Assembly: GCF_000378225.1 (NCBI RefSeq)
Contig: NZ_KB905142.1
Span: forward strand, 62,001 to 126,000
Source: Methylophilus methylotrophus DSM 46235 = ATCC 53528
GTDB taxonomy: Bacteria > Pseudomonadota > Gammaproteobacteria > Burkholderiales > Methylophilaceae
DNA length: 64,000 nt
Direction of reading: 5' to 3'
The notes beneath the pieces are model-generated. The model worked only from the letters and a program-made list of their open reading frames with translations. It had not been told where the DNA came from and ran no database searches. Shown here piece by piece: positions 848-27,120 of this stretch (positions are counted from its first letter, which is position 1; every line of letters begins with the position of its first letter). The translations under genes were made by a program, and so were the position numbers.

Positions 848-1393
848 CTAAGCACGAGGCCCCCAAATGGCCTTGTTTCTCCGTTCCCAGTACTCGTATA
901 AATCATTCCGAAGAGTGATTATCCGATCCGCAAGCTTTTCCAGAGACTCTGCGGAAAACTGGACATATTCTTGCTCCATTCCTTTTGCTGTCGTCTTAAG
1001 CCTCACATAGGTGTAGCCATCGTGATCGGTATTTTCCCAATCAGCGTGGACAACTAGGTTCCTAAGTTTTCCAACATCCGTAAGGTCAGCAATTAGCTTT
1101 TCAAACCCATCAATGACTCCAGAACCAGACAAATGCAAATCATCGCAGAAGCGTTTGAAGAGATCGACCTTCGCTCCATAACTCAACTTTTGAATGATGA
1201 TCAAGCCTGGAATATCTGTTCTGTCCGTAACGGTTTCACACAGCACTGAATCTAGGGATTTCTCAAGCGCGTTGAAATACATAACGACTAAGCCAATAAG
1301 AGGCAGTGAATCTTCTAGATAGAGCTCGGCTTTCTCTTCGTCTTCTATCTCATGAGACAGATGTTGAATTAACTGAGTCGTTTTGGTTTTCAT
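848..1393 (-). CDS. HEPN-like protein with RNLVVH motif (A)
   Basis: A 181-residue, largely helical soluble protein. Near residues 111-116 it has R-N-L-V-V-H followed by ADW, which fits the Rx4-6H RNase signature of HEPN domains found in toxins and defence proteins. An upstream helix has the pattern FNALEKSL (about residues 40-47) and a second helix AKVDLFKRF (about 74-82). The neighbour at 1471-2004 has the same three elements in the same order (FQRIEDAL, RSRVATFGALF, RNTLVH), so the two are probably diverged paralogues. The HEPN call rests on motif and architecture, not on a profile search. The RNA target, if any, is unknown. Confidence 0.55.
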   Translation of the reverse strand: MKTKTTQLIQHLSHEIEDEEKAELYLEDSLPLIGLVVMYFNALEKSLDSVLCETVTDRTDIPGLIIIQKLSYGAKVDLFKRFCDDLHLSGSGVIDGFEKLIADLTDVGKLRNLVVHADWENTDHDGYTYVRLKTTAKGMEQEYVQFSAESLEKLADRIITLRNDLYEYWERRNKAIWGPRA

Positions 1394-1470
1394 GACCTTA
1401 ACCTCTAGCGACTAACATTAAGGGGCGCGCTTTAGCGAGACCTGCTTGATGGATGGGGTGGGAATGACAA

Positions 1471-2004
1471 TCACAGTAGTCTCTTTTCAGTTTTTGGCAA
1501 ATGTTCTGAAGTAAGGAAAAATAGGTCAGTAACAATACCCTCAAATAAACGGTTTAGGTCGTCAAGGTCATCGGGTGTAAAGTGTTCTTCAGCGGTTGCT
1601 AGATTACTTTTTCGTATAGATTTCTTTTCGCGACGAATTGTATCGGGTTTGGATTCGCTTGCATCCCATAGCGAGTGCACAAGAGTATTTCTCTGTTGTT
1701 CTGCCCAGTGAAGACGGGATATAAGTTCAGATATATCGTCTGGTAGGGTGGTTGATTTTAATGAGTGTGCAAACAAAGCTCCAAATGTTGCCACGCGAGA
1801 GCGAAAGGACATCTCTGTAGTAATAATTTCACCAACTTTGCGCGAACGACCCACCATTGCAGAAATGCATACCGAAAGTGCATCTTCTATGCGCTGAAAC
1901 TGAACAATGCATTCTCCAAGGCGGGCTAATCCGCTTTCCCAAGAGTTTAATGATTGAACCAGTTTTTCATATTCGCTACGACGCATAGTTCTTAAGATGC
2001 CCAA
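1471..2004 (-). CDS. HEPN-like protein with RNTLVH motif (B)
   Basis: A 177-residue helical protein, apparently paralogous to the gene at 848-1393. The motif R-N-T-L-V-H followed by SLW (residues 105-110) matches the Rx4-6H signature of HEPN RNases. The preceding FQRIEDAL and FRSRVATFGALF segments correspond to the helices of the paralogue. The C-terminal 50 residues carry a basic stretch (RREKKSIRKS) and an acidic helix. ATG at 2004 is used; a second ATG six codons on is possible. The gene is separated by 77 bp from protein A on the same strand, so the two may be co-transcribed. No conventional antitoxin gene is recognisable beside them. Confidence 0.55.
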   Translation of the reverse strand: MGILRTMRRSEYEKLVQSLNSWESGLARLGECIVQFQRIEDALSVCISAMVGRSRKVGEIITTEMSFRSRVATFGALFAHSLKSTTLPDDISELISRLHWAEQQRNTLVHSLWDASESKPDTIRREKKSIRKSNLATAEEHFTPDDLDDLNRLFEGIVTDLFFLTSEHLPKTEKRLL

Positions 2005-2407
2005 CGTAAACTAGGCATCCTAAATGACACAAAACTTTCCAGTATTGATGCTTTTTTGATTGAAGGTTTAAGGCTTTTATTTAACATTTTCAAGCTGTTG
2101 TTAAATTTTAGACCATCCTAAAATACAACCTTAACTGCGTCAACTTCTATCAGCCCTACACAATAACCAATACCTTTTAATGACATATTCATCAAAAGTC
2201 GAGTTTGCCGAGAACAGTTCCATGCCTTCTGGCTTGGCTTGAACAAGAAGCAATCCGTCCAATAGGTCTTTGTGGCAGGTTTCTTGTAAGAGGTTACAAC
2301 GCTACAATCGACTATGTGATCGCACGCCTACATAATTCTTGCTGTATGAACGAATAGGGAAAAATTCCCGAATGTTTTTGGTGAATACTCTTTAAAATCC
2401 CCATTGC
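2005..2407. other. Gene-poor stretch before the MoxY-like kinase
   Basis: About 400 bases without an intact gene. 2005-2139 is AT-rich with no recognisable feature. 2140-2301 holds the PIN-toxin remnant. 2302-2407 is the presumed 5' region of the kinase gene at 2408; I could not pick a convincing -35/-10 pair. Confidence 0.5.
2140..2301 (-). pseudogene. 3' remnant of a PIN-domain (VapC-type) toxin gene
   Basis: On the minus strand the frame from 2301 to a TGA at 2140 reads CHKDLLDGLLLVQAK, then EGMELFSANSTFDEYVIKRYW. This resembles the C-terminal half of PIN toxins (typically H-x-DPFDRLLIAQA then EG-x-x-L-x-(S/T)-x-D-x-x-F-x-x-Y-x-V). The frame has a TAG immediately upstream (2302-2304) and no start, so only the last third of the domain survives. 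It sits between the HEPN genes and the sensor kinase, consistent with turnover of toxin-type genes here. The match is by eye. Confidence 0.5.
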
Positions 2408-3787
2408 ATGATGAAATCTCTCAGTCTTCAATTCAAACTCAATCTGATCATTACCCTGTTACTGCTTGGGCTATTACTGACTTGGGCGATTTCCGTGATT
2501 AAAAATGCGCGGGAGGATGTGTTGGCAGAGGTGGATTCGACGACCAACCTGGTGATGCATTTGCTGGATGCGCAGATCGCGCATTACATGACAGACTTTG
2601 GTTGGCTGAGCCGTAGCGAGGAAGGAAAAGTCTCTGTTTTCAGGCTGGAAGAATTGACCAATATCCGGCATCTGAAGGTGGATTTTTTTGATGTGAATGG
2701 TCGCTTAAGGGAGTCTAACCGCTCGACGCGTGTGGAGCATGCGGGGGAAGAACCACCGATCTGGTTTGTCAGGTTGCTCGACATTTCGAGTGTGCTTAAT
2801 GAACCCAAACGCAAAAATATCATCCTCAACGGGCGTTTGATCGGTGAGTTGGTGATTACGCCTGATCCGAGTTTCGAGTTGCGCGAGATCTGGGATGATA
2901 CTTCAGGCTTGCTCTCTATCGTTGGCTTGTTTGGCCTCAGTGTGCTGTTGTTTGTGTATTGGACGGTGCGGGCGACGTTTAAACCGGTCAAGCAGATTAT
3001 CCATGGCTTAAACCAGATTGAACATGGCGATTACCAGACCCGGCTGCCTGGTTTTGAGCAGGTTGAGTTAAGCGAAATCAGCGACAAGTTTAACAAGATG
3101 GCGAGCACGCTGGAGCAAAGCATACGCAATAACCACAGGCTGACCCAGCAGATTATTCATTTGCAGGAAGAAGAGCGCAAAAAGCTGGCGCGTGACCTGC
3201 ATGATGAAATCGGCCAGTACCTGACCGCAGTGCATATAGATGCCAGTGCCATGGTGGCGGCCAAAAAGCTGACCGTAGCGCGTGAAAGTGCCAAAGCGAT
3301 TGCGCAAATCACCCGGCAAATGATGTTCACTATTCAGGATTTGCTGGCGCGATTGCGCCCGCGGGTGCTGGACGAGCTTGGACTGAGTCTGGCACTGGCA
3401 GAATTGATTCACCACTGGCACGATAGAAACCGCAGCATCATGGTCGTGAATAATATTTCCAACCACTTGACGCAGCCAGATGAATCGGTGGCGGTGACGG
3501 TATACCGTATCTTACAGGAATGCCTGACCAATATCAGCAAACACGCTGCGGCCGAGCGGGTGACCATAGAGGTGAGCGACAAGGCGGGTGGTTTGTACTT
3601 GCTGGTTGAAGATGATGGCCGTGGTTTTGATCCCACAGTGCCAAGCCGGGGTTATGGCTTGGCTGGCATGCAGGAGCGCGTGGAGGGATTGATGGGAACG
3701 ATGAATATTAGTAGCGCCCCCGGCCAGGGGACACGCATAGAAGTGCACTTTCAAAATACAGGAAAATTTCGGGATACTGCGCCATGA
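2408..3787 (+). CDS. MoxY-like membrane sensor histidine kinase (NarL/UhpB class)
   Basis: A 459-residue inner-membrane kinase. A transmembrane helix lies near residues 10-30, followed by a periplasmic region of about 130 residues that resembles the LapD/MoxY N-terminal sensor domain, a second membrane helix near 168-188, and a HAMP linker. The HisKA_3 dimerisation helix has the phosphoacceptor in RKKLARDLHDEIGQYLTA, and the HATPase domain shows the N box (ECLTNISKHA), DDGRGFD and GYGLAGMQERV. The stop overlaps the start of the downstream regulator by 4 bases (ATGA), so they are translationally coupled. MoxY-type kinases control methanol oxidation genes in some methylotrophs. Here that role is inferred from the domain and the nearby pqqA genes; the ligand is unknown. 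Confidence 0.85.
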   Translation: MMKSLSLQFKLNLIITLLLLGLLLTWAISVIKNAREDVLAEVDSTTNLVMHLLDAQIAHYMTDFGWLSRSEEGKVSVFRLEELTNIRHLKVDFFDVNGRLRESNRSTRVEHAGEEPPIWFVRLLDISSVLNEPKRKNIILNGRLIGELVITPDPSFELREIWDDTSGLLSIVGLFGLSVLLFVYWTVRATFKPVKQIIHGLNQIEHGDYQTRLPGFEQVELSEISDKFNKMASTLEQSIRNNHRLTQQIIHLQEEERKKLARDLHDEIGQYLTAVHIDASAMVAAKKLTVARESAKAIAQITRQMMFTIQDLLARLRPRVLDELGLSLALAELIHHWHDRNRSIMVVNNISNHLTQPDESVAVTVYRILQECLTNISKHAAAERVTIEVSDKAGGLYLLVEDDGRGFDPTVPSRGYGLAGMQERVEGLMGTMNISSAPGQGTRIEVHFQNTGKFRDTAP

Positions 3788-4422
3788 TAGTCAAGGTTGT
3801 GTTAGTGGATGATCACACGGTGGTGAGGTCAGGGTTGCGCCGTTTGCTGGAGAGCCATAAGTCCATAGAGATTGTGGCAGAAGCGGACACCGGCGAGATG
3901 GCGTATCAAGTGTATGGGGAAGTCTTGCCCGATGTGGTATTGATGGATATTTCCATGCCGGGCATGGGCGGGCTGGAAGCCGCCAAACGTATTTTGCAGC
4001 GCTATCCCCAGGCAAAAATTGTGATTTTCTCCATGCATGAGGCGGTGTCGTTTGCAGCCCAGGCGCTTAAAACCGGCGTCAAAGGCTATGTCACTAAAAC
4101 GGGTGTGGCTGATGACTTGGTTCAGGCGGTGCTGGATGTCGCCAAAGGCCGTACCTTCCTGAGCCAGGATGTGGCGCAAAAGGTGGCTTTGCAGACATTG
4201 ATCGGTGAAAGTAATCCGCTACAGCAGTTAACCTCGCGTGAATTTGAAGTGTTCCGCTTATTGGCAGAAGGTAAACGCGTCGAAGACGTGGCCGAGATGC
4301 TTAAAATCAGCCAGAAAACTGTCGCTAACTATTACACACTGATCAAGCAGAAATTATCCGTGAACAGCCCGGTGGAAATGGTGAGGCTGGCGATGAAACA
4401 TGGTTTGATTGATGCCGAATAA
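3784..4422 (+). CDS. MoxX-like NarL-family response regulator
   Basis: A 212-residue cytoplasmic regulator. An N-terminal receiver domain begins with VLVDDHTVVRSGLRRLL, and the phosphoacceptor Asp lies in VVLMDISMPGMGGLEA. The C-terminal LuxR-type helix-turn-helix (LTSREFEVFRLLAEGK, then MLKISQKTVANYYTLIKQKL) binds DNA. It is coupled by a 4-base overlap to the kinase upstream, which is presumably its phosphodonor. By analogy with MoxX-type regulators it could activate methanol dehydrogenase or PQQ genes. The nearest PQQ gene is the pqqA starting at 5900, but no binding site can be assigned from the sequence alone. Confidence 0.85.
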   Translation: MIVKVVLVDDHTVVRSGLRRLLESHKSIEIVAEADTGEMAYQVYGEVLPDVVLMDISMPGMGGLEAAKRILQRYPQAKIVIFSMHEAVSFAAQALKTGVKGYVTKTGVADDLVQAVLDVAKGRTFLSQDVAQKVALQTLIGESNPLQQLTSREFEVFRLLAEGKRVEDVAEMLKISQKTVANYYTLIKQKLSVNSPVEMVRLAMKHGLIDAE

Positions 4423-4450
4423 CGGGCCGCGATTTATTCCTCATCTGCAA

Positions 4451-5776
4451 TTAGTCTACCTTTAATAAATCCTCCCAGCGCGTCGTATAGCCAGGACTCT
4501 TACGCTCCTGCTTCATGCGCCAGTCTTGCCTGACCTGCAATCCCTCGCTGGCTAGTTTGACCGTAGCCCGCCCCATTTTCTGGTTGATACTGTCCAGCAC
4601 ATGCATCAACCGTTCCGACTTTTCCTGACCAGTGGCCGCATGGAACATATCCTGTTGCTGTGCCCCGGCAGTCACCAGTTCACCCAGTGATACTCCCGCC
4701 TTGGCATAGTCGTATCCCGGACGATAAATCTTTCTTAGAGCAACGAGAGCTGCCTGAACCAGATGCAAGGTATTATTGGTGGCGACATACAGCGATAACC
4801 GCAGGCTGTTGTCGTATTGTTGGCCGGGGTCGCGGAAAGGGCTGGTGCGGATATAGACATAGATACTGCCTGCATATAATTTTTGTTGGCGCAGTTTTTC
4901 CGCTGCACGGGTCGTATAAAGCGTGACGGCTTCTTCCAGACTTTGCAGGTCTCGCACAGGGTGACCAAAGCTGCGGGTACTCAGGATTTGCTGCTTGGGG
5001 CCCCGTATCTGTTCAAGTTCCAGGCAGGCGGTGCCATTCAGTTCGCGTACCGTTTTCTCCATGATCACGTTAAACTTTTGTCGCATGGCTGCCGCATTGC
5101 TTACCTTGAGGTCATAGGCGGTGTGTATGCCTGCGTCATGCATATGCTGGCTTAAATGCCGGCCTATGCCCCACACATGGCTGACATCAATATCACGTAA
5201 TGCGTCATCTACGGCAGCCATGGGCATGCTGTTGAAATTGCACACGCCATTCAGGGCTGGCTCTTGCTTGGCGAGATGGTTAGCCAGTTTTGCTAATGTT
5301 TTGCTGCTGCCTATCCCAACGCATACCGGCAGGCCGGTCGACTGCAGCACTGTTTGCCTGAGTTGCTTGGCATACAGTGTCAGGTCCCGCGTCGCAAATG
5401 AGGTGAGATCAAGAAATGATTCATCAATGGAATAAACTTCTTGCGCCGGGCTGAATTGCCGCAAAACAGACATGACGCGGTTACTCATGTCGGCATATAG
5501 TGCATAGTTGGATGAGTACGCAACGACGCCTTCCTGTTGGGCAAACTTGCGGACCTTGAACCAGGGTGCGCCCATGGGGATGCCCAGGGCTTTTGCTTCT
5601 GCACTGCGGGAGATAATGCAGCCATCATTGTTGCTTAACACCACCACGGGGCGATTGCGCAGCTTTGGGTTAAACACGCGCTCGCAACTGACGTAGAAGT
5701 TATTCACATCTACCAGTGCGATGGCCCTGGGGGCAAGATCTTTAAATGGGGTCTCATTCATTTTTATGAGGCCCAT
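4451..5776 (-). CDS. umuC: Error-prone DNA polymerase V catalytic subunit UmuC
   Basis: A 441-residue Y-family polymerase for translesion synthesis during the SOS response. The first metal-binding Asp lies in [16 protein letters not shown] (D23) and the second acidic pair in [10 protein letters not shown] (D118, E119). Helix-hairpin-helix and little-finger regions follow, and length is normal for UmuC. ATG at 5776 is chosen because AGGG lies about 13 bases upstream; an ATG at 5761 gives MNETPFKD and is also possible. It is downstream of umuD on the same strand, but the 266-base gap between them contains pqqA on the opposite strand and a terminator-like hairpin, so the two may not be simply co-transcribed. 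Confidence 0.92.
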
Positions 5777-5853
5777 TTCATGAAATTCCCTAAAGTCTGT
5801 TCATGATCCGCAATAGCATGATTTTGACTGGGCAGGCCGATAATACATGCACA

Positions 5854-5877
5854 CGAACCAGACATGGGGTCGGTTCG
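5854..5877 (+). promoter_or_regulatory. Inverted repeat in the leader of pqqA copy 1
   Basis: CGAACC (5854-5859) and GGTTCG (5872-5877) form a 6-bp dyad ending 22 bases before the pqqA start codon. It could be a regulator operator or an mRNA hairpin. The pqqA promoter itself could not be fixed; TTGACT at 5824-5829 lacks a properly spaced -10. Confidence 0.35.
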
Positions 5878-5899
5878 GGAAATAAAAAAGGAGATCATT

Positions 5900-5971
5900 A
5901 TGTGGACTAAACCAGCTGCTACCGAAATGCGTTTCGGCTTTGAAGTAACCATGTACGTGATGAACAAATAA
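5900..5971 (+). CDS. pqqA: PQQ precursor peptide PqqA, copy 1
   Basis: A 23-residue peptide gene preceded by a strong ribosome-binding site (AAGGAG, 6-7 bases before ATG). The peptide begins [13 protein letters not shown] and continues [10 protein letters not shown]. Glu15 and Tyr19 (E-V-T-M-Y) are the residues cross-linked by PqqE and processed into pyrroloquinoline quinone, the cofactor of methanol dehydrogenase. No pqqBCDE genes are in this window, so the peptide must act with enzymes encoded elsewhere. It lies on the opposite strand between umuD and umuC and has its own terminator. A near-identical copy lies at 7722-7793. The identification is secure despite the size because the whole peptide matches the family. 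Confidence 0.93.
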
Positions 5972-5989
5972 TTCATCTGAGTACCCAGC

Positions 5990-6019
5990 AACCCGGTATG
6001 AATCCATGCCGGGTTTTTT
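5990..6019 (+). terminator. Rho-independent terminator of pqqA copy 1
   Basis: AACCCGGTATG (5990-6000) pairs with CATGCCGGGTT (6005-6015) with one G-T mismatch around a 4-base loop, followed by a run of T. It begins 18 bases after the pqqA stop codon. Confidence 0.8.
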
Positions 6020-6042
6020 ATTGCCATCATATCCATGATTGT

Positions 6043-6669
6043 CTATCTGAACCGCCTGAACGAACCAATCACCACGCCCCACACTTCAAACTGCATCGGC
6101 GGCTCGATCAGGATAGGGCTGTATTTGCCTGATGCATTGGCGGGTAACAGCTTAGGGTTGCCATTTTTTTGTTTTGCCAAGATTTTGATGGTGAATTCGC
6201 CATCTATCATGGCAAGTACAATATCACCTATAACAGCTTGCTTGCCTCTATCCACGACCGCTTTGTCTCCTGGTATCAAACCCGCTTCAATCATGGATTC
6301 CCCCTGGATCGTGACAAAAAAAGTGGTATCCGCCTGATCAATCAAGTAGGCATTCGGGTCCAGACGGTCTTCGATATGGTCATCTGCTGGTGATGGAAAA
6401 CCTGCCGGCACTTTGGATTGGAAGATCGGCAGACTGACTTCTTGCAGATCTGCTGCAGGCAGGGCGAATTTAGACACTTGATCCAGGTTTTGCTTTAACT
6501 GATTGGCTTGTCGCTTTTTGGCGTAAGCTGCCATGAGATCGCTGACCACCGGTTTCTGGCTCACCGGAATACGTACAACAATGGTTTTTTCCAGGCGGGT
6601 GGTAGAGCCGGGCTTGCGCCCAGCGCCTGGCCGTTTACCGCCTTTTATCTTTTTAACCTCATCGCTCAT
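6043..6669 (-). CDS. umuD: UmuD-like LexA-fold autopeptidase with N-terminal extension
   Basis: A 208-residue S24-family protein. The C-terminal 120 residues are UmuD-like: autocleavage site A89-G90 followed by FPSPADD, catalytic Ser125 in QGESMIEAG and Lys162 in FTIKIL. Ordinary UmuD is about 140 residues; this one carries an extra N-terminal region of roughly 70 residues beginning with a basic GGKRPGAGRKPGSTT segment. Extended UmuD proteins such as Acinetobacter UmuDAb act as repressors, so a DNA-binding role is plausible but inferred. The ATG at 6669 has no visible Shine-Dalgarno and overlaps a 25-bp palindrome (6669-6693). It lies upstream of umuC and presumably forms the mutasome with it. 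Confidence 0.88.
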   Translation of the reverse strand: MSDEVKKIKGGKRPGAGRKPGSTTRLEKTIVVRIPVSQKPVVSDLMAAYAKKRQANQLKQNLDQVSKFALPAADLQEVSLPIFQSKVPAGFPSPADDHIEDRLDPNAYLIDQADTTFFVTIQGESMIEAGLIPGDKAVVDRGKQAVIGDIVLAMIDGEFTIKILAKQKNGNPKLLPANASGKYSPILIEPPMQFEVWGVVIGSFRRFR

Positions 6670-6693
6670 TGATTAATTGTAACAAATAATCAA
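6669..6693 (-). promoter_or_regulatory. 25-bp near-perfect palindrome at the umuD start
   Basis: The half-sites TTGATTAATTGT and ACAAATAATCAA match as reverse complements at 11 of 12 positions around one central base. The element begins at the first base of the umuD start codon and fills the space where a ribosome-binding site would be expected. It is unlike the CTGT-N8-ACAG LexA box. A bound protein here would block transcription or initiation, and the LexA-fold product itself is a natural candidate. Confidence 0.6.
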
Positions 6694-6828
6694 TCGTGCA
6701 TAAGTCATTATGTTGATATTTACTTAAACTTTAATTTTCAAGGATAGACGTCGGTTGCTGCATGTGTTTTTCTAACCAGCATTCAGGCTAACCGTTATAC
6801 TGTTGCGCTTTGAATTCACTGACTGACT

Positions 6829-7644
6829 ATGGACTGGATACCACTGTTTTTTGAGCAATATGCACTCTTTTGCCTGATAGGGATGGTGGTTGGTGTGCTG
6901 TCCGGTTTGCTGGGAATCGGTGGCGGGATTGTGCTGGTACCCATGCTGCATGCCATACTGGTTGCAAAAGGATTTTCAGCCGATGTGGCTTTTCATATGG
7001 CGCTGGCCACTTCAATGGCATGTATCGTGTTTACTTCACTGTCGAGTATTTTAGCGCATCATAAAAACCAGAATATTGTCTGGCGATATGTCTGGGCCAT
7101 GGTGCCCATGGCGTTTTTGGGCTCGCTGCTCGCAACATTGGTGGCGATTCATCTGGATGCCTTTTATTTGACACTGTTTTTTGCCATGTTTACTTTTTTT
7201 GCAGCGGCTCAATTATTCCGGGACCGCAAACCTATCCAGCATAAAGTCCCGGGCAAGATTGAAATCAGCCTGGTATCCCTGTTAATTGGTGTGATTTCCG
7301 CCTTGGTGTCGATTGGCGGTGGTACGTTAACGGTGCCTTACCTGGCCATGCGCAATGTGTCGGTCAAGCAGGCGATTGGCACTTCGGCGGTGCTGGGTTT
7401 CCCGATTGCGCTGGCGAGCACAGTGAGCTATTTGCAAGATGCCATCCGGCAAGCTACGCATGCGCCCGACACCTTTGGGCTGATCTATTTGCCAGCAGTG
7501 ATGCTGATTACCCCGCTAAGTGTATTGTTTGCGCCTGCTGGTGTGGCATTGACAAAACGCTTACCAGTGAAAATATTAAAGCGTATTTTTGCCGTGTTTT
7601 TGATGGGGATAAGTATCCACTTGCTGTGGTCACAGTTGGCTTGA
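6829..7644 (+). CDS. TSUP-family (TauE/SafE) transporter
   Basis: A 271-residue inner-membrane protein with about eight hydrophobic helices and the two repeated signatures of the TauE/SafE family: GVLSGLLGIGGGIVLVPML near residue 20 and ISALVSIGGGTLTVPYL near 157. Members export or import sulfite, sulfonates or related organic anions; the substrate here cannot be told. The gene stands alone between umuD, which diverges from it, and pqqA copy 2, which converges on it. The shared terminator at 7667-7690 separates it from pqqA. Confidence 0.85.
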   Translation: MDWIPLFFEQYALFCLIGMVVGVLSGLLGIGGGIVLVPMLHAILVAKGFSADVAFHMALATSMACIVFTSLSSILAHHKNQNIVWRYVWAMVPMAFLGSLLATLVAIHLDAFYLTLFFAMFTFFAAAQLFRDRKPIQHKVPGKIEISLVSLLIGVISALVSIGGGTLTVPYLAMRNVSVKQAIGTSAVLGFPIALASTVSYLQDAIRQATHAPDTFGLIYLPAVMLITPLSVLFAPAGVALTKRLPVKILKRIFAVFLMGISIHLLWSQLA

Positions 7645-7666
7645 CCGTCTCCGTGACAGCCAATAA

Positions 7667-7690
7667 AAAACCCGCTTTGCAGCGGGTTTT
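7667..7690. terminator. Bidirectional terminator between the TSUP gene and pqqA copy 2
   Basis: AAAACCCGCT (7667-7676) pairs with AGCGGGTTTT (7681-7690) around a TTGC loop. A/T runs on both sides make it usable in both directions, serving the TSUP gene on the plus strand and pqqA on the minus strand. Confidence 0.8.
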
Positions 7691-7721
7691 GTTTTCAGTG
7701 CGTGATAAACACAAGCACTGA

Positions 7722-7793
7722 TTATTTGTTCATGATGTACATAGTCACTTCAAAACCAAAACGCATTTCTGTAGCAGCTGGTTTAGTCCACAT
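7722..7793 (-). CDS. pqqA: PQQ precursor peptide PqqA, copy 2
   Basis: A second 23-residue PqqA gene, identical in protein sequence to copy 1 except for Ile instead of Val at residue 20. Glu15 and Tyr19 are kept. An AAAAGGAG ribosome-binding site lies 7 bases before the ATG. Compared with copy 1, six of 24 codons differ and five of these changes are silent, which indicates that both copies are maintained by selection. The long leader (7794 onward) contains three inverted repeats, unlike copy 1, so the copies may be regulated differently. No pqqBCDE genes are nearby. Confidence 0.93.
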   Translation of the reverse strand: MWTKPAATEMRFGFEVTMYIMNK

Positions 7794-7820
7794 GATTAAT
7801 CTCCTTTTGGTTGTTAAGTA

Positions 7821-7839
7821 GTACATCGTTCTGATGTAC
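7821..7839 (-). promoter_or_regulatory. Perfect 7-bp inverted repeat in the pqqA copy 2 leader
   Basis: GTACATC (7821-7827) and GATGTAC (7833-7839) are exact reverse complements with a 5-base spacer, ending 28 bases upstream of the pqqA start codon. It would form a stem-loop in the leader RNA or serve as an operator. A -10-like TATAGT (minus strand) lies just upstream, near 7853-7858. Confidence 0.5.
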
Positions 7840-7875
7840 TTGTATGACTCCCACTATACGCATGTGTTTCAAAAG

Positions 7876-7917
7876 TGCCCTGAGGGCATCACGTAAAAAC
7901 GGCTCATGATTTTACGT
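7876..7917. promoter_or_regulatory. Two dyads between pqqA copy 2 and the YoaK-like gene
   Basis: TGCCC-TGA-GGGCA (7876-7888) is a 13-bp palindrome. Immediately beside it, ACGTAAAA (7891-7898) and TTTTACGT (7910-7917) form a perfect 8-bp inverted repeat with an 11-base spacer. Both lie in the divergent spacer, so they could serve either gene. No factor can be named from sequence alone. Confidence 0.5.
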
Positions 7918-7989
7918 AGTTTGAGTTGAAGTCCTCAGCCGGCAGCGTAGAATGGGAGTCAAGAATCATCACAAAAATAAGGGTGTGAC

Positions 7990-8646
7990 ATGATGCAGCG
8001 CTTGCCCCGCTGGGTGGAGTGGGGCGGATTTTTACTGGCCATGAATGCCGGTTTTGTGAACGCCGTCGGTGTGCTGGGATTTCGTCACCAGGCGGTGTCG
8101 CACCTGACCGGTATCTCCACTTATTTCTCCATTGAGTTGGTGAATCAGGATGCATGGCAAGTCTTGCATCTATTGTGGGTGATCCTGTTTTTTGTGCTGG
8201 GGGCCATTTTGAGCGGTGTGCTGATAGGAAATGAAGCACTCAGAATCGGCCGTCGTTACCATGTGGCGTTATGGCTGGAGGCTGGTTTATTGGCCGCCTC
8301 TGTCTGGTTGCTGAGTCATGGCTGGCAAAGTGGGCAGTGGTTGGCCTCAGCCGCTTGCGGCCTGCAAAATGCCATGACCAGTACCTTTAGCGGGGCGGTG
8401 GTGCGTACCACGCATGTCTCAGGGTTATTTACCGATATCGGCATTGCCCTCGGCCTGCGTTTACGCGGGCAAGCGGTGGATAGGCGACGCCTGCTACTCT
8501 ATACCCTATTGATTGCCGGCTTTATTTGTGGTGGCGTGTTAGGCGTCTGGGGATATCTGCATTGGCACTTTAACGCCTTGTTATTGCCGGCAGCGCATGT
8601 GGCTGCTCTCTCTGTGAGTTACTACGGGCTTAGCCGTCGGCACTGA
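7990..8646 (+). CDS. YoaK/DUF1275-family membrane protein
   Basis: A 218-residue integral membrane protein with about six hydrophobic segments. It has the DUF1275 pattern: an early FLLAMNAGFVNAVGVLGF helix, then HLTGISTYF, and a mid-protein GLQNAMTSTFSGAVVRTTHVSGLFTDIG segment typical of the family. Members have no established transport substrate. An AAGGGTG site precedes the ATG. It is transcribed divergently from pqqA copy 2 across a spacer rich in inverted repeats. No operon partner follows before pgm at 8760. Confidence 0.8.
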   Translation: MMQRLPRWVEWGGFLLAMNAGFVNAVGVLGFRHQAVSHLTGISTYFSIELVNQDAWQVLHLLWVILFFVLGAILSGVLIGNEALRIGRRYHVALWLEAGLLAASVWLLSHGWQSGQWLASAACGLQNAMTSTFSGAVVRTTHVSGLFTDIGIALGLRLRGQAVDRRRLLLYTLLIAGFICGGVLGVWGYLHWHFNALLLPAAHVAALSVSYYGLSRRH

Positions 8647-18910: not shown

Positions 18911-19288
18911 ATGAAACTGATCAAGTTGTCTGCGATTGTACTGGCGGTATTCACGGTGATCCTCACCATCGTCTTTTTTACCTGGTGGGCATTCAAGGAC
19001 GAAGCGGTATTTGGCAGTGAGAAATTTGACCAGACACGCTGGATGGAGCTTTCGAGTAGTGTACAAAAAGATTGCCGCCGGGGTGACATGGCTTACGACC
19101 TCAAAAATCATATCTTGATCCGCGGTGCCAAAAAAGAGGCTGTGATGGCCCTGCTCGGCCGCCCCAGTCTCGAAGATGCCAACGCACTGGAGTATGACCT
19201 CGGCAAATGTATGCATGTTTACCATGCATTGCGTATTTATTTTGATGCGGATGCGCGCTTAACCCATAGCCAGATTTCCTCGCACTAA
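18911..19288 (+). CDS. Small membrane-anchored protein, SmpA/BamE-like repeat
   Basis: A 125-residue protein with an N-terminal membrane helix (IVLAVFTVILTIVFFTWWAF) and a soluble remainder. The segment LIRGAKKEAVMALLGRPSLEDANALEYDLG resembles the small SmpA/OmlA-type motif (G-x-x-x-x-x-V-x-x-x-LG-x-P ... Y-x-LG) seen in many short bacterial lipoproteins. There is no lipobox. It follows nrdR by 20 bases and may be co-transcribed with it. Function unknown. Confidence 0.6.
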   Translation: MKLIKLSAIVLAVFTVILTIVFFTWWAFKDEAVFGSEKFDQTRWMELSSSVQKDCRRGDMAYDLKNHILIRGAKKEAVMALLGRPSLEDANALEYDLGKCMHVYHALRIYFDADARLTHSQISSH

Positions 19289-19292
19289 TGCC

Positions 19293-20435
19293 TTATGCAC
19301 AGGCCAGGGAAAGTCCTGAGGTTTGCGGCGTAAAGGTTTTATAGCGTTTATAGAACGTCTGCATAAAGTCTGCCAGTCGATCAGCGGCAGCAATTTCCAA
19401 CCCATTATAAATCGAGGCACGGATGCCACCGATGCTGCGGTGACCATTCAGGCCTGAAAAGCCTGCCTGTTGGGCAGCCTGTAAAAATGCCTGTTCTATC
19501 TCTGCGTTAGGTAAATTAAATACCACATTCATGTTGGAGCGGTCAGCGATAGCGGCACGACCGCGGTAGAAATCGGCATAGTCATCCAGCACTTGGTACA
19601 AACAAGCTGCTTTCAGCTCGTTATGTTTGGCAATATTGTGCAAGCCGCCGATGTCATGAAGTAGCCAGCGTGTCACCAGCAACACACTGTAAATGGCAAA
19701 CACAGGCGGAGTATTGTAAATAGAGTGCGCATCCGCCTGAGCATGGTAGTTGATAAAGCCAGGTAAGTCCTTGGGCAGGGTCTGCATAAAATCATCGCGC
19801 AAAATGACGAGTGTCACGCCTGCGGGGCCTATGTTTTTTTGGGCATGGGCATAGATCATTGCATAGCGGTTGAATTCGCCTGGTGCAGACAGCAGGTCAG
19901 AGGACATGTCACAGATACGCGGGACATCGTCCCGGCCGGGCACACGGTGAAACTGCAAGCCTTCTACGGTTTCGTTTGAAATGTAGTGAAAATAGGCAGC
20001 ATCTTTTGAAAACTGCAACTCCGCATCACTCGGCAAACGGCTAAACTGGTCAGCCTTGCCGCTCCACGCCAGATGAAGCTTGCCAGACTTTTCAGCTTCA
20101 TGAATGGCTTTGCCACTCCAGTAGCCACTGTGGATGTAGTCAGCAGACTGCCCATCGCGTAACAGGTTCATGGGCAGCATGGAGAACTGTTGCGTGGCGC
20201 CACCTTGCATCATGAGCACGCGCGTAGTGTCAGGCAGGCCCATCAACTGGCGGATATTGTCTTCAAGCTCATGCACGACTTGTGCAAACCATTGCGAACG
20301 GTGGCTGATGCCGAGGATAGACAGACCGACCTCTGGCACACACAGCATGGCGGTTTGTAGCTGCTGCAATACACTCTCCGGCAATGCACCCGGGCCGCCA
20401 GAAAAATTCAATTGATTGGCATTCAGTTTCATCAT
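19293..20435 (-). CDS. serC: Divergent SerC-like phosphoserine aminotransferase
   Basis: A 380-residue class V PLP aminotransferase. The Schiff-base lysine is K200 in YAHAQKNIGPAG. The N-terminus reads LNFSGGPGALPESVL and the substrate region GISHRSQWF; canonical SerC has a FSAGPA...MSHRS pattern, so this is a SerC homologue with many unusual positions. The canonical reaction is 3-phosphohydroxypyruvate plus glutamate to phosphoserine. Its ATG overlaps the last 4 bases of the 714-residue zincin/ATP-grasp gene, so the two are translationally coupled. It may therefore be the housekeeping SerC or a paralogue dedicated to the neighbour's pathway. A second serC elsewhere in the genome would settle this. 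Confidence 0.85.
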   Translation of the reverse strand: MMKLNANQLNFSGGPGALPESVLQQLQTAMLCVPEVGLSILGISHRSQWFAQVVHELEDNIRQLMGLPDTTRVLMMQGGATQQFSMLPMNLLRDGQSADYIHSGYWSGKAIHEAEKSGKLHLAWSGKADQFSRLPSDAELQFSKDAAYFHYISNETVEGLQFHRVPGRDDVPRICDMSSDLLSAPGEFNRYAMIYAHAQKNIGPAGVTLVILRDDFMQTLPKDLPGFINYHAQADAHSIYNTPPVFAIYSVLLVTRWLLHDIGGLHNIAKHNELKAACLYQVLDDYADFYRGRAAIADRSNMNVVFNLPNAEIEQAFLQAAQQAGFSGLNGHRSIGGIRASIYNGLEIAAADRLADFMQTFYKRYKTFTPQTSGLSLACA

Positions 20436-22576
20436 GCGCTCTCCAGTAATGGTTGCGTCTGTAATGTATATAAATACTGCTCGAAAGCGTGCTGTAGTTT
20501 GGCAATCTGCCCAGCCTTGAACGGGAACAGGCTGGCCGAATCCATAGCGTGCACGGCCATGATATGGTCTATTTCAAACACCAGCAGTTTGCCATCCGGT
20601 GTTTCAGCACAATCAATGCACAGGTAATCAAGTTGTAAACGCTCATAAATGGCCGACAATGCAGCCTGATGGCGCGTAGCAAAACTGGTGAAGTTTTGCA
20701 TGAATAGGTCTTCTTCTTCGCGTTTCTCGGCGGACTCATACATGCCGGCGTTGACGTAGTGAACCATCCAGTCACTCGAAATCGCCATATGGCAAATAAA
20801 GGGTTCGCCGCGCAGCATGGCAATTCTGTATTTGCGGAACTGCCCATCGTGGCTGCTGTAATCCACAAAACGGGACACAAAGAAATCGGGGCTTGTCACC
20901 TCTTTTAAATAGTCCGCTAGTTCATTCGCGGAGGTGATTCTGGCCAGATTGTTACCTGCTTGTGAACCAACGGGACGGATAATCAATGGAAAACCAGGCA
21001 ATGCCTCAGGGGCGGGTTGTTTACCTTGGTTTTGCAGGCTTAAATCTGTCACTACCTGGCTACGCGACAGTTTATGTGTGCGTGGCATTTCCAGTCCTGG
21101 GATATCTTGCAAGAGCGCGCTTAATTGATCACGGTTAACGTTGGGCAGTAAATGCGGTGGATTGATGACCGGTTTTGCGTGACCTGACAGGCTGGCTTGC
21201 ACAGCTAACAATAGCGCCCGGTTAGCCTGGCTATCAGACAGGCCTACCATGACGGCATCATGTTCAGGGAGTGGAGAGGGCAGCGGCTGTTCTACCGTGG
21301 CGTAGTAATAAAGCAGTTCTACCGGGGTGTTTTCCAGCAGGCAATCAATAGGGGTGTTTTCTGACAGGTCACCTGCCGTCATGATCATCAGCAGGCGGAA
21401 TTTTGGTCGCCTGCAGTCAGCCGGGCGAATATACAGACGCTGTAAGGCTAATGCCTGCTCCTGGATGGCTAATCCCATGTCTCGCATTTTGAGACATAAA
21501 AATACCGTCGCCAGATTCATCCATAAGATGGCATTCTCCTGGTCTTGATTAGCTTGTACCAGCAACGATTGTGCATGGGATCGCAAGTCCGCGCCATTCA
21601 GGTTCATGCGCAGGAAAGGCGCAAGGCCCTGGAAGGTATGCCCGGCATTATTGTGTTCCAGTGACTGCAATAAGTTATGAAAGTATCGCCGCTTTTCAAT
21701 GGCACGCGACGAAGCCCAGAAGTCATCGCTGGTGAATACCAGTGCATCGCCGACCTTTACCTGCACGCGATAGGGTTGGCCCAGCAATTGTGTATGCACG
21801 TAAGTGGCAAAGCACTCGGCGAAATCTTCCTGTACATCCATGCTGGCATATAAGGAGGGAAAAGCAGTTCTTGCCAGGTCGCGGTAAAGATCTAGCGCCT
21901 GGCTGACATGCAGTACCGGCTGGCGGTAAAACGAGATTTTTTCACGGTGGGGAAAGTTCTGTTCTGGTCGAATCGCTTTAGTACCACTCGTTTGCCAGCT
22001 ATGTTTGCTAAAGTGACCGGCCAGTTTGGGGAGAGGAAAGCTCCACTCTTTGGGGCAAATGTCTGTCATGGTAGCGAGGACATGGCCAAATTCATGCAGT
22101 AATAGGAAGCGCAAGGCTTGCACGCGATGGTCGCTGTCTTCGTTGGCAATGCACACCTGAATCTGCACCTCTTCATCCGCCGTAAACGCCGAATTTTCTT
22201 TCCAGCTGGCCCAGGCATTTGCCGAAGCGTGCGCAAACGCATGAGTATCCAGCACGATAATAAATCCGATATTGTTGCTGCCATCACCCAGTGCGACCAT
22301 ATCGGTCAGGCCGGATGCTCCCAGGCCATCAGCAAAGAAAATCCCCAGTACAGATTTGTTGAGCGTATTCATGAGGCTTTCTGGCAGGGTTGCCAACGCC
22401 TCTGTTAAATCTGATTCTATTTCAGGGCTTATTCGGCTGAGGGTGCATGTCTGCTGCTGCGAGCGGCCATAAGTCGATAAAAACGACTGCAAGTCTGCGG
22501 TAGGGGCGGCAATGCGTGTGTGCAGCGGTTGTGCATACAGGGCCAGCCAAGGGTTGGGATCGGCAATATAAATCAT
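20432..22576 (-). CDS. Zincin / helical-repeat / ATP-grasp fusion protein
   Basis: A 714-residue soluble protein in three parts. The N-terminal ~300 residues look like a zinc metallopeptidase: LLHEFGHVLATM carries HExxH at 161-165, and EDFAECFATYVH (E254) is a good candidate for the third ligand. Residues ~330-390 are helical and TPR-like (NQDQENAILWMNLATVFLCL). The C-terminal ~230 residues are ATP-grasp-like: RPVGSQAGNNLARI (534-547), FRKYRIAMLRGEPFICHMAI, and a metal site in CIDCAETPDGKLLVFEID (D655, E668, D670). ATP-grasp ligases join a carboxylate to an amine via an acyl phosphate. The gene overlaps serC by 4 bases. No signal peptide. The combined activity is undescribed to my knowledge; the domain calls are by eye. 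Confidence 0.7.
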   Translation of the reverse strand: MIYIADPNPWLALYAQPLHTRIAAPTADLQSFLSTYGRSQQQTCTLSRISPEIESDLTEALATLPESLMNTLNKSVLGIFFADGLGASGLTDMVALGDGSNNIGFIIVLDTHAFAHASANAWASWKENSAFTADEEVQIQVCIANEDSDHRVQALRFLLLHEFGHVLATMTDICPKEWSFPLPKLAGHFSKHSWQTSGTKAIRPEQNFPHREKISFYRQPVLHVSQALDLYRDLARTAFPSLYASMDVQEDFAECFATYVHTQLLGQPYRVQVKVGDALVFTSDDFWASSRAIEKRRYFHNLLQSLEHNNAGHTFQGLAPFLRMNLNGADLRSHAQSLLVQANQDQENAILWMNLATVFLCLKMRDMGLAIQEQALALQRLYIRPADCRRPKFRLLMIMTAGDLSENTPIDCLLENTPVELLYYYATVEQPLPSPLPEHDAVMVGLSDSQANRALLLAVQASLSGHAKPVINPPHLLPNVNRDQLSALLQDIPGLEMPRTHKLSRSQVVTDLSLQNQGKQPAPEALPGFPLIIRPVGSQAGNNLARITSANELADYLKEVTSPDFFVSRFVDYSSHDGQFRKYRIAMLRGEPFICHMAISSDWMVHYVNAGMYESAEKREEEDLFMQNFTSFATRHQAALSAIYERLQLDYLCIDCAETPDGKLLVFEIDHIMAVHAMDSASLFPFKAGQIAKLQHAFEQYLYTLQTQPLLESA

Positions 22577-25981: not shown

Positions 25982-26625
25982 ACGCCACCCCTGCAGAGCA
26001 GTTGTTGCAGACAGTGCAAAAGATGGCACAGGCTGGACTCAATAAAGGCACGTCCGGGAACGCCAGTATTCGCTTGGAGGATGGTTTTTTGGTTACCCCT
26101 TCTGGCGTCCCGGTTGAGCAGTTGAACGCAACAAGTATGGTGTACATGGACTGGGAGGGTAGGCCGGAAGCTGGTAAGAAACCTTCCAGTGAATGGCGTT
26201 TTCACCGCGATATTTTGCTGGCCAGGCCAGAAATGGGCGCCGTTGTCCATACCCATAGCATGTTCGCTACCACCATCGCTTGCATGGGGTGCAACGTGCC
26301 ACCCTTCCATTACATGATTGCAACAGTCGGCGGCGATGATATCCGTTGTGCCCCCTATGCCTTGTTCGGGACCCAGGACTTGTCCGACAGTGCCGTTGAC
26401 GCCTTGCACGACCGCAAGGCTTGCCTGTTGGCGCACCACGGCATGATTGCGGTGGGCAAGACTCTGCCACAAGCGCTGGCGATTGCGGTGGAAGTTGAGA
26501 ACCTGTGTGAGCAGTATTGGCGGCTATTGCAGTTGGGTGAGGTTAAACTGCTGACGTCTGAACAGATGCGCGAGGTACATGCCCAGTTCACCGGTTATGG
26601 TCAGTGGGGGAAATCGCAGCTATAG
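25978..26625 (+). CDS. Class II aldolase, FucA/Ald2-like (methylthioadenosine salvage)
   Basis: A 215-residue zinc aldolase. It carries SGNASIRLEDGFLVTPSGVP, SSEWRFHRDIL (catalytic Glu72), zinc ligands H91 and H93 in VVHTHSMF, HYMIATVGGDDIRCAPYALFGT and a further His in LLAHHGMIA. These resemble fuculose-1-phosphate aldolase more than MtnB dehydratase. Coupled by 4 bases to mtnA, it most likely cleaves methylthioribulose 1-phosphate to DHAP and methylthioacetaldehyde, as Ald2 does in the DHAP shunt of Rhodospirillum and E. coli. MtnB remains the alternative. No mtnC, mtnD or mtnK is in the window. Confidence 0.8.
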   Translation: MNATPAEQLLQTVQKMAQAGLNKGTSGNASIRLEDGFLVTPSGVPVEQLNATSMVYMDWEGRPEAGKKPSSEWRFHRDILLARPEMGAVVHTHSMFATTIACMGCNVPPFHYMIATVGGDDIRCAPYALFGTQDLSDSAVDALHDRKACLLAHHGMIAVGKTLPQALAIAVEVENLCEQYWRLLQLGEVKLLTSEQMREVHAQFTGYGQWGKSQL

Positions 26626-27120
26626 CTTTGGAAAGAGTTCCAGTGTGGTCAGGCGCAACAAACGGCTCGGGTCACAGACGAAGACATTATTTTCCATGGC
26701 CAGAATCGCTTCGGTAGGGGCGTAACACCTGAGCAAAACACCACCGGAGTCGACCGCATTGAGACCTTTGGCATAACTGGTGGCAAACGCTTGCGAAGGT
26801 GTCCAGCAGAAACCGATCTGGTGCTGGTCAAATAAAAACCAGCATTCGCCGCGATACAAGTTTAATCCTTCCCCGTTGTAACCTGGCAAGGCCTTTCTGA
26901 GTACCGCCAGTATCAAATCATCGTCCCGGATTTTTGCACGCAAGTCACCGCCGTACTGCATCCACAACGTGGCTATTTTCGCTTTCTGAAAAGCGGAATC
27001 ATCTTTGAGTTGAGAGAGATAGTTGAACGTTTCGCGCCAGAGCGGGGCATCCACCGCGTTGACATACGAACCCAGGCAAAACTGTTTGGCGAGGGACTGG
27101 ACTGTTTGTGTCATCTGCAT
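26620..27120 (-). CDS. Putative ADP-ribosyltransferase-like protein
   Basis: A 166-residue soluble protein. The core GLNLYRGECWFLFDQHQIGF, CWTPSQAFATSYAKGL and GGVLLRCYAPTEAILA resembles small ADP-ribosyltransferase folds (Arg90 in YRGE, then a G-x-x-WT-x-x-x-x-A-x-x-(F/Y)A segment, then a candidate catalytic Glu in PTEAI). This is a by-eye fold suggestion. It ends inside the 3' end of the aldolase gene (6-base convergent overlap) and lies 18 bases downstream of bpt on the same strand. If real it would modify a cytoplasmic target, since no secretion signal is present. Confidence 0.45.
   Translation of the reverse strand: MQMTQTVQSLAKQFCLGSYVNAVDAPLWRETFNYLSQLKDDSAFQKAKIATLWMQYGGDLRAKIRDDDLILAVLRKALPGYNGEGLNLYRGECWFLFDQHQIGFCWTPSQAFATSYAKGLNAVDSGGVLLRCYAPTEAILAMENNVFVCDPSRLLRLTTLELFPKL

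Follow-up and report, generated by a model that had tools for sequence, protein, structure and literature searches.

The 64,000-nucleotide stretch of the Methylophilus methylotrophus DSM 46235 genome analysed here (contig NZ_KB905142.1, positions 62,001 to 126,000; hereafter the window) carries on its minus strand two overlapping genes that belong to a compact two-gene unit found across many bacteria, composed of an ATP-grasp ligase gene and a gene for a paralogue of the aminotransferase SerC. The first open reading frame (ORF; 20432..22576) codes for a 714 amino acids (aa)-long protein in which its translation, structural models and fold searches distinguish a zincin-like domain, TPR-like repeats and a RimK-type ATP-grasp domain. 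The second ORF (19293..20435) codes for a class V aminotransferase of 380 aa. The stop codon of the former overlaps the initiation region of the latter by 4 nucleotides (nt; 20432..20435), an arrangement for which the coordinates of the initial annotation were correct. The zincin-like domain is an accessory, dispensable and local addition to the unit. We propose, with a probability of about 0.5, that the ligase and the SerC paralogue form a self-contained two-enzyme amide-forming unit.

The linkage between the two genes is conserved. An ATP-grasp gene was found within ~1.5 kb in 14 of the 14 loci of the paralogue and in none of 17 canonical serC loci, namely that of M. methylotrophus itself and the 16 best-scoring of several hundred canonical matches (the loci hold ~1.5 kb per side, less at contig ends). 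The genes lie on the same strand in all 23 pairs measured. The ligase gene precedes the aminotransferase gene in 22 of them, with a spacing between −46 and +10 nt that is −4 in 16/23 pairs, gene starts being those of a simple ORF caller. The order is reversed in locus L048, whose ligase is of a type with a long TPR region. When all neighbours were compared with each other in 30 loci, the ligase cluster was represented in 27 loci, the paralogue in 13 and any other family in at most four; the zincin falls into the ligase cluster in this comparison, joined to it through the fusion. A tree of ATP-grasp sequences, from which seven loci were left out as near copies, places 14 of the 19 paralogue-linked ligases in a single group of 16 rows with weak support (83/40), which also takes in L038, where the contig ends, and L042. 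The pair is also present in a Paraburkholderia plasmid, annotated there as a RimK family ligase and serC. A ligase copy found in a Cupriavidus plasmid (L096:7899-9160) is split across two frames.

Sequence comparison identifies the window aminotransferase as a SerC paralogue distinct from canonical serC. It scores 569.5 bits against NF009112 (PRK12462 type; cut-off 563) and 426.3 bits against NF003764 (cut-off 253), stays under the cut-off of TIGR01364 (417.6 versus 443.6 bits), and matches Aminotran_5 in Pfam. The second serC of the genome, whose existence had been left to be checked, is found at G000:C1:177727-178788 and is 42% identical to the paralogue; the divergence from canonical SerC noticed initially is thus borne out by both the TIGR01364 score and this identity. 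The second gene reads as canonical because it scores 565.6 bits with NF003764 while staying under the NF009112 cut-off (374.6 bits). A SerC match is present in 334 of 349 genomes of the order. Fourteen of the 349 carry a member of the paralogue clade, with an identity of at least 58% in 13 cases; the member from G397 (46%) was assigned by its placement in the tree, where its row is labelled L074_can. Two or more SerC matches are present in 13 of these 14 genomes, the exception being G238 (85% complete) with one. When 21 paralogue and 17 canonical SerC sequences are placed in one tree, the two sets separate with 100/100 support. K200 (19836..19838), the presumed lysine that binds pyridoxal phosphate (PLP), is conserved in at least 20 of the 21 paralogues and in 17/17 canonical SerC sequences, and H45, R46, W106, H332 and R339 are likewise common to the paralogue and canonical SerC. 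SerC residues of these last types have roles in phosphate and carboxylate binding. The paralogue is a member of NF009112 by score that keeps the key SerC residues, but differs from canonical SerC in its ligase-tied clade and in ten positions fixed differently, which include V245 and, three residues on the N-terminal side of K200, H197.

The C-terminal 414 residues of the fusion protein were modelled from 10 sequences with a predicted local distance difference test score (pLDDT) of 76.7 and a predicted template modelling score (pTM) of 0.77. Foldseek and VIA-align place this model nearest to RimK, LysX/ArgX and D-Ala ligases, giving strong support to a predicted RimK-type ATP-grasp fold. LysX/ArgX is the first match in Foldseek (E 3.4e-9) and RimK the best one in VIA-align (Z 15.6 over 266 residues, 3.7 Å; LysX/ArgX, Z 14.1). 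The pre-ATP-grasp and ATP-grasp region covers approximately residues 391-707 (20456..21406). D655 (20612..20614), the presumed second Mg ligand, and E668 of E668-I-D670 (20567..20575), a presumed Mg site from what is typical of the superfamily, are invariant in the 31 sequences of alignment A1 (the window protein and 30 of 33 prepared homologues; L033, L034 and L035 were dropped as near copies), the third position of the E-I-D motif being variable. These residues resemble the Asp/Glu metal residues of RimK, LysX and ArgX. In many ATP-grasp ligases a Lys in the motif (I/V)KP binds ATP; here the IIRP motif has an Arg (R534; 20975..20977) in 31/31 sequences, an Arg that carbamoyl-phosphate synthetase also has at this position in the alignment compared. 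The ligase further differs from the RimK group by scoring far under the cut-off of NCBIfam rimK_fam (TIGR00768; 16 versus 143.4 bits), by the TPR-like helices that stand in front of its catalytic domain and by its SerC or decarboxylase partner genes. The helices (~residues 315-388; 21413..21634), described initially as helical repeats, were recognized by the match of positions ~13-87 of the A1 profile, which takes in the long-TPR relatives, to TPR structures (e.g., 1w3b, E 1.1e-15). The structural model has four helices in this region, corresponding to about two short repeats; the window protein alone gave no Pfam TPR match.

The N-terminal domain (residues 1-300; 21677..22576) was modelled with AlphaFold2 from 11 sequences (mean pLDDT 81.4, pTM 0.85). 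Foldseek found nothing significant for this model (best E 0.68). Re-examination of the Foldseek rows with VIA-align gave matches to the catalytic region of lethal factor (Z 9.1, 152 residues, 3.6 Å), to the putative zinc metallopeptidase 4l7a (Z 9.0, 189 residues, 4.2 Å), to the HExxH alpha-ketoglutarate oxygenase domain of ChlB (8s5f; Z 8.3) and to the putative metal-dependent hydrolase 3dl1 (Z 6.9), which we take to be MtfA. A zincin-like fold is moderately supported by the model, since best Z values of 7-8 are common for models without relatives; the support is strengthened by conservation of the HExxH motif. HEFGH (residues 161-165; 22082..22096) and D251-F-A-E254 (21815..21826), within the sequence E-D-F-A-E, are located where the initial annotation had read them. 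H161, E162, G164 and H165 as well as D251-F-A-E254, with E254 presumably acting as the third metal ligand, are invariant in the 13 N modules of alignment A2, which omits L037 and L093 because both are without the region. A profile made from A2 had no match in the PDB. The whole protein remains sub-threshold for Pfam Peptidase_Mx (PF15887; 18.3 bits, cut-off 27) and Mx1 (PF15890; 15.7 bits, cut-off 25.6). The domain thus shares HExxH and a distal Glu with zincins of the Peptidase_Mx/Mx1, MtfA and lethal-factor kind (Z 6.9-9.1), and differs from zincin metallopeptidases by these scores, by its fusion to a ligase and by a start in which no leader was recognized by eye. HExxH alpha-ketoglutarate hydroxylases such as ChlB and PflC, which act on ribosomally synthesized and post-translationally modified peptides (RiPPs), share the zincin-like HExxH fold (PMC12636437), and the predicted fold does not separate a peptidase from an oxygenase. 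The distal ligand of the window domain is probably Glu-like, unlike that case, its neighbour genes are not of RiPP type by eye, and the window proteins had no alpha-ketoglutarate HExxH hydroxylase family among their NCBIfam matches (E up to 1).

The distribution of the zincin-like domain is narrower than that of the pair. The full-length fusion was found in 10 of 150 genomes sampled from the family, all 10 from Methylophilus; as to the conservation across Methylophilaceae that was to be checked, the full-length fusion is confined to one genus in this sample. Among the 22 Methylophilus genomes listed, that of the window included, the fusion is full-length in 10, shortened in G105 and without a match in 11. 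A zincin profile search of 42 genomes detected the domain only in M. methylotrophus and as a remnant in G152; accordingly, none of 13 pair-bearing genomes outside Methylophilus has an intact zincin and one (G152) has the remnant. HExxH and [E/D]DFAE are kept in 15 of 17 N-terminal homologues (the window protein and 16 others). The segment is deleted in the other two, the fused homologues of Methylophilus rhizosphaerae (L037) and G152 (L093), which keep approximately the first 120 residues; the loss of the metal site in orthologues, named initially as a refuting result, has thus occurred in part, in these two. Both the absence of an intact copy from the 13 genomes outside the genus and the deletion of the catalytic core in the two homologues mark the zincin as accessory and rule it out as a core component. 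The initial view of a unit made of a peptidase, a ligase and an amino-donor enzyme holds for the coupling of ligase and SerC paralogue and is overstated for the peptidase, because most of the ligase relatives identified, and the pairs identified outside Methylophilus, are without an intact zincin. A Rhodocyclaceae metagenome-assembled genome codes for a fusion with 42% identity on a contig that stops before any serC. In Janthinobacterium (L039) ligase and zincin are encoded by separate convergent genes, a PLP decarboxylase gene preceding the ligase. The start of the stand-alone zincin relatives L040, L041 and L046 resembles a secretion leader by eye; the last of these (G008, L046:5712-6764) lies ~0.9 kb from glyA, near the site of the Methylophilus fusion.

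Five Methylophilus genomes without the pair, out of the 11 listed with no match, were inspected at the corresponding site (in G125 the marker gene could not be located). All five keep the order glyA-nrdR-hp-ribD-tatD with the hypothetical protein gene (hp) and ribD adjacent. The pair is therefore a cassette placed between hp and ribD.

A survey of 398 genomes of the phylum found a strong ligase match (E <1e-40) in 31 genomes and weak matches only in 19 more, several of the weak ones being frames of ~1,100 aa that are probably carbamoyl-phosphate synthetase-like. Analysis of 32 of the 33 strong places outside the window (G696 was left out) uncovered a sister form of the unit: a PLP decarboxylase gene is beside the ligase in 19/32 loci, the SerC paralogue in 2/32 and neither in 11/32. 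A second PLP-type gene, named AT5b, is present in 16 of the 19 decarboxylase loci and in three of four further ones (L039, L043, L044, L097). The 63 loci of the ligase tree divide into 19 with the SerC paralogue, 23 with the decarboxylase and 21 with neither. The L044 decarboxylase matches Pfam Pyridoxal_deC. No Pfam match was found for the two AT5b members tested, NCBIfam matches were weak or absent in three and a comparison with the PDB gave nothing meaningful; the invariant Asp and Lys of AT5b nevertheless suggest a PLP enzyme. Triads of decarboxylase, TPR/ATP-grasp ligase and AT5b are found in L043, L044, L097, L130-L133, L135-L139, L141-L144, L157, L158 and L160, flanked in several loci by genes that appear by eye to be of housekeeping type.

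We infer the catalytic steps, substrates, direction and biological role of the pair as follows. The SerC paralogue would transaminate a 2-oxo acid to an amino acid, most likely a phosphorylated, phosphoserine-like one. The RimK-type domain would activate a carboxylate as acyl phosphate and join it to the SerC-derived amine, the TPR-like helices possibly helping to bind the carboxylate partner. The fused Methylophilus zincin, to guess from its fold, would probably act by trimming the acceptor or by hydrolysing the conjugate. In most ATP-grasp enzymes an acyl phosphate is the intermediate through which a carboxylate is coupled to a thiol or an amine (PMC8141765). The decarboxylase of the sister form would yield a product that has lost its alpha-carboxylate and for which the role of amine partner is the best fit, which points to a common scheme in which a PLP enzyme supplies an amine that the ligase couples; by analogy, the SerC product may likewise be the amine partner. 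A phosphorylated amino acid is favoured for this role because the paralogue keeps the canonical SerC residues. It is possible, and we put this forward only tentatively, that these loci represent an undescribed class of amide-forming pathways of two or three genes, widespread among Pseudomonadota. Its PLP enzymes (the SerC paralogue, or the decarboxylase with AT5b) would be interchangeable suppliers of the amine used by a single family of TPR/ATP-grasp ligases, Methylophilus having gained a fused product-editing metallohydrolase.

Several observations weigh against an amide-forming pair of this kind. The ligase occurs with neither SerC paralogue nor decarboxylase in the 11/32 survey and 21/63 tree loci mentioned above, some of which are truncated where a contig stops. 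G026 has its SerC paralogue next to a divergent long-TPR ligase, the ligase of the matching clade being encoded elsewhere. The ten fixed differences of the paralogue, including H197 and V245, mean that its substrate may have changed and is perhaps not phosphohydroxypyruvate. Finally, inositol-phosphate kinases match the C-terminal model with Z 13-14 (top 14.3).

The unit might alternatively serve protein tagging: the TPR-like helices would dock a protein, the ATP-grasp domain would attach the SerC product at the C-terminus or on a side chain of this protein, and the zincin would remove the tag. This is unlikely, although the best fold match, RimK, is a modifier of ribosomal protein S6 and some relatives have suggestive neighbours. 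The L048 long-TPR ligase has as neighbours a SerC paralogue and a protein of ALTTAQ repeats, and shorter relatives overlap a gene for a TPR-GT41 glycosyltransferase (L042) or a TPR protein gene whose GT9 match is sub-threshold (L045). Yet no conserved target gene was found near the pair in the 30 loci compared, the repeats of the window protein are short and only about two in number, and the repeat-protein neighbour is found in one locus. The L048 segment (1189-8292) holds the SerC paralogue and long-TPR ligase genes beside that of the repeat protein, which is 1352 aa long with 28 PF20080 stretches. The L042 ligase gene shares 4 nt with the glycosyltransferase gene (L042:9466-12515), whose GT41 domain is presumably of the O-GlcNAc transferase type; the SerC paralogue of this genome is at the separate locus L048.

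The similarity to inositol-phosphate kinases opens another route, in which the ATP-grasp domain would work as a kinase and transfer phosphate to a compound related to the phosphorylated substrate or product of the SerC paralogue. It is improbable, as RimK and LysX/ArgX rank first in VIA-align and Foldseek, respectively, and the weak sequence-profile matches of the domain are mostly ligases or carbamoyl-phosphate synthetase. Somewhat more remote is a phosphonate pathway in which the paralogue would make phosphonoalanine from phosphonopyruvate and the ATP-grasp enzyme would build peptides from it, as in phosphonoalamides. The M. methylotrophus genome does have a phosphoenolpyruvate (PEP) mutase above cut-off; over the Methylophilus genomes searched this holds for 10 of 11 pair-bearing and one of five pair-less ones. 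PMC11867202 describes for the phosphonoalamide pathway (PnaA-PnaD) the logic of an aminotransferase feeding ATP-grasp ligases that the window pair resembles. The link within the genus may however reflect shared descent. A PEP mutase above cut-off was found in only one of 13 pair-bearing genomes outside it, so the connection is not general. The window genome enzyme is fused to a nucleotidyltransferase domain and encoded on another contig (G000:C1:49145-50467; L179:9146-10468, minus strand), and PnaA belongs, according to PMC11867202, to the aspartate aminotransferase superfamily, a family other than that of the window enzyme. Least probable of all, an ordinary duplicate serC providing extra serine-pathway capacity beside an incidental neighbour would agree with the conserved active-site residues, the NCBIfam name phosphoserine transaminase and the passed NF003764 cut-off, but not with the linkage (14/14 versus 0/17), the separate clade, the occurrence of the partner fusion in only 11 of 22 genus genomes, one of them shortened, or the second SerC match of 13/14 paralogue-bearing genomes.

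Each part of the preferred amide-forming unit belongs, or nearly belongs, to a known kind, while their combination and spread are apparently undescribed. No description of an ATP-grasp ligase paired with a SerC paralogue was found in the searches made of open-access PMC papers, in line with the initial suggestion of an undescribed ligation or modification system. Methylotrophs also have the ATP-grasp methylofuran glutamate ligases MyfA and MyfB (PMC8141765), from which the window fusion differs by its absence from 11 of the 22 Methylophilus genomes.

The GC content of the cassette (0.50-0.54) resembles that of its flanks, and recent acquisition as foreign DNA was rejected on this basis. Scanning for promoters and terminators gave about as many matches as in shuffled sequence. 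A role as a defence system was rejected, neither window protein matching a PADLOC model at E 0.01; in the same scan the L044 decarboxylase weakly matched DndA/SspA and one L048 protein matched a TPR model. Two small ORFs of the window (18911-19288 and 26620-27120), without Pfam match, are kept across the genus.

The context of NF009112, a family named phosphoserine transaminase in databases, implies another job, and counting its members as plain serine biosynthesis may therefore mislead. The two-gene unit is small enough for direct in vitro reconstitution and might bring to light, for many Pseudomonadota, a conjugated metabolite or a modification of proteins that is new.

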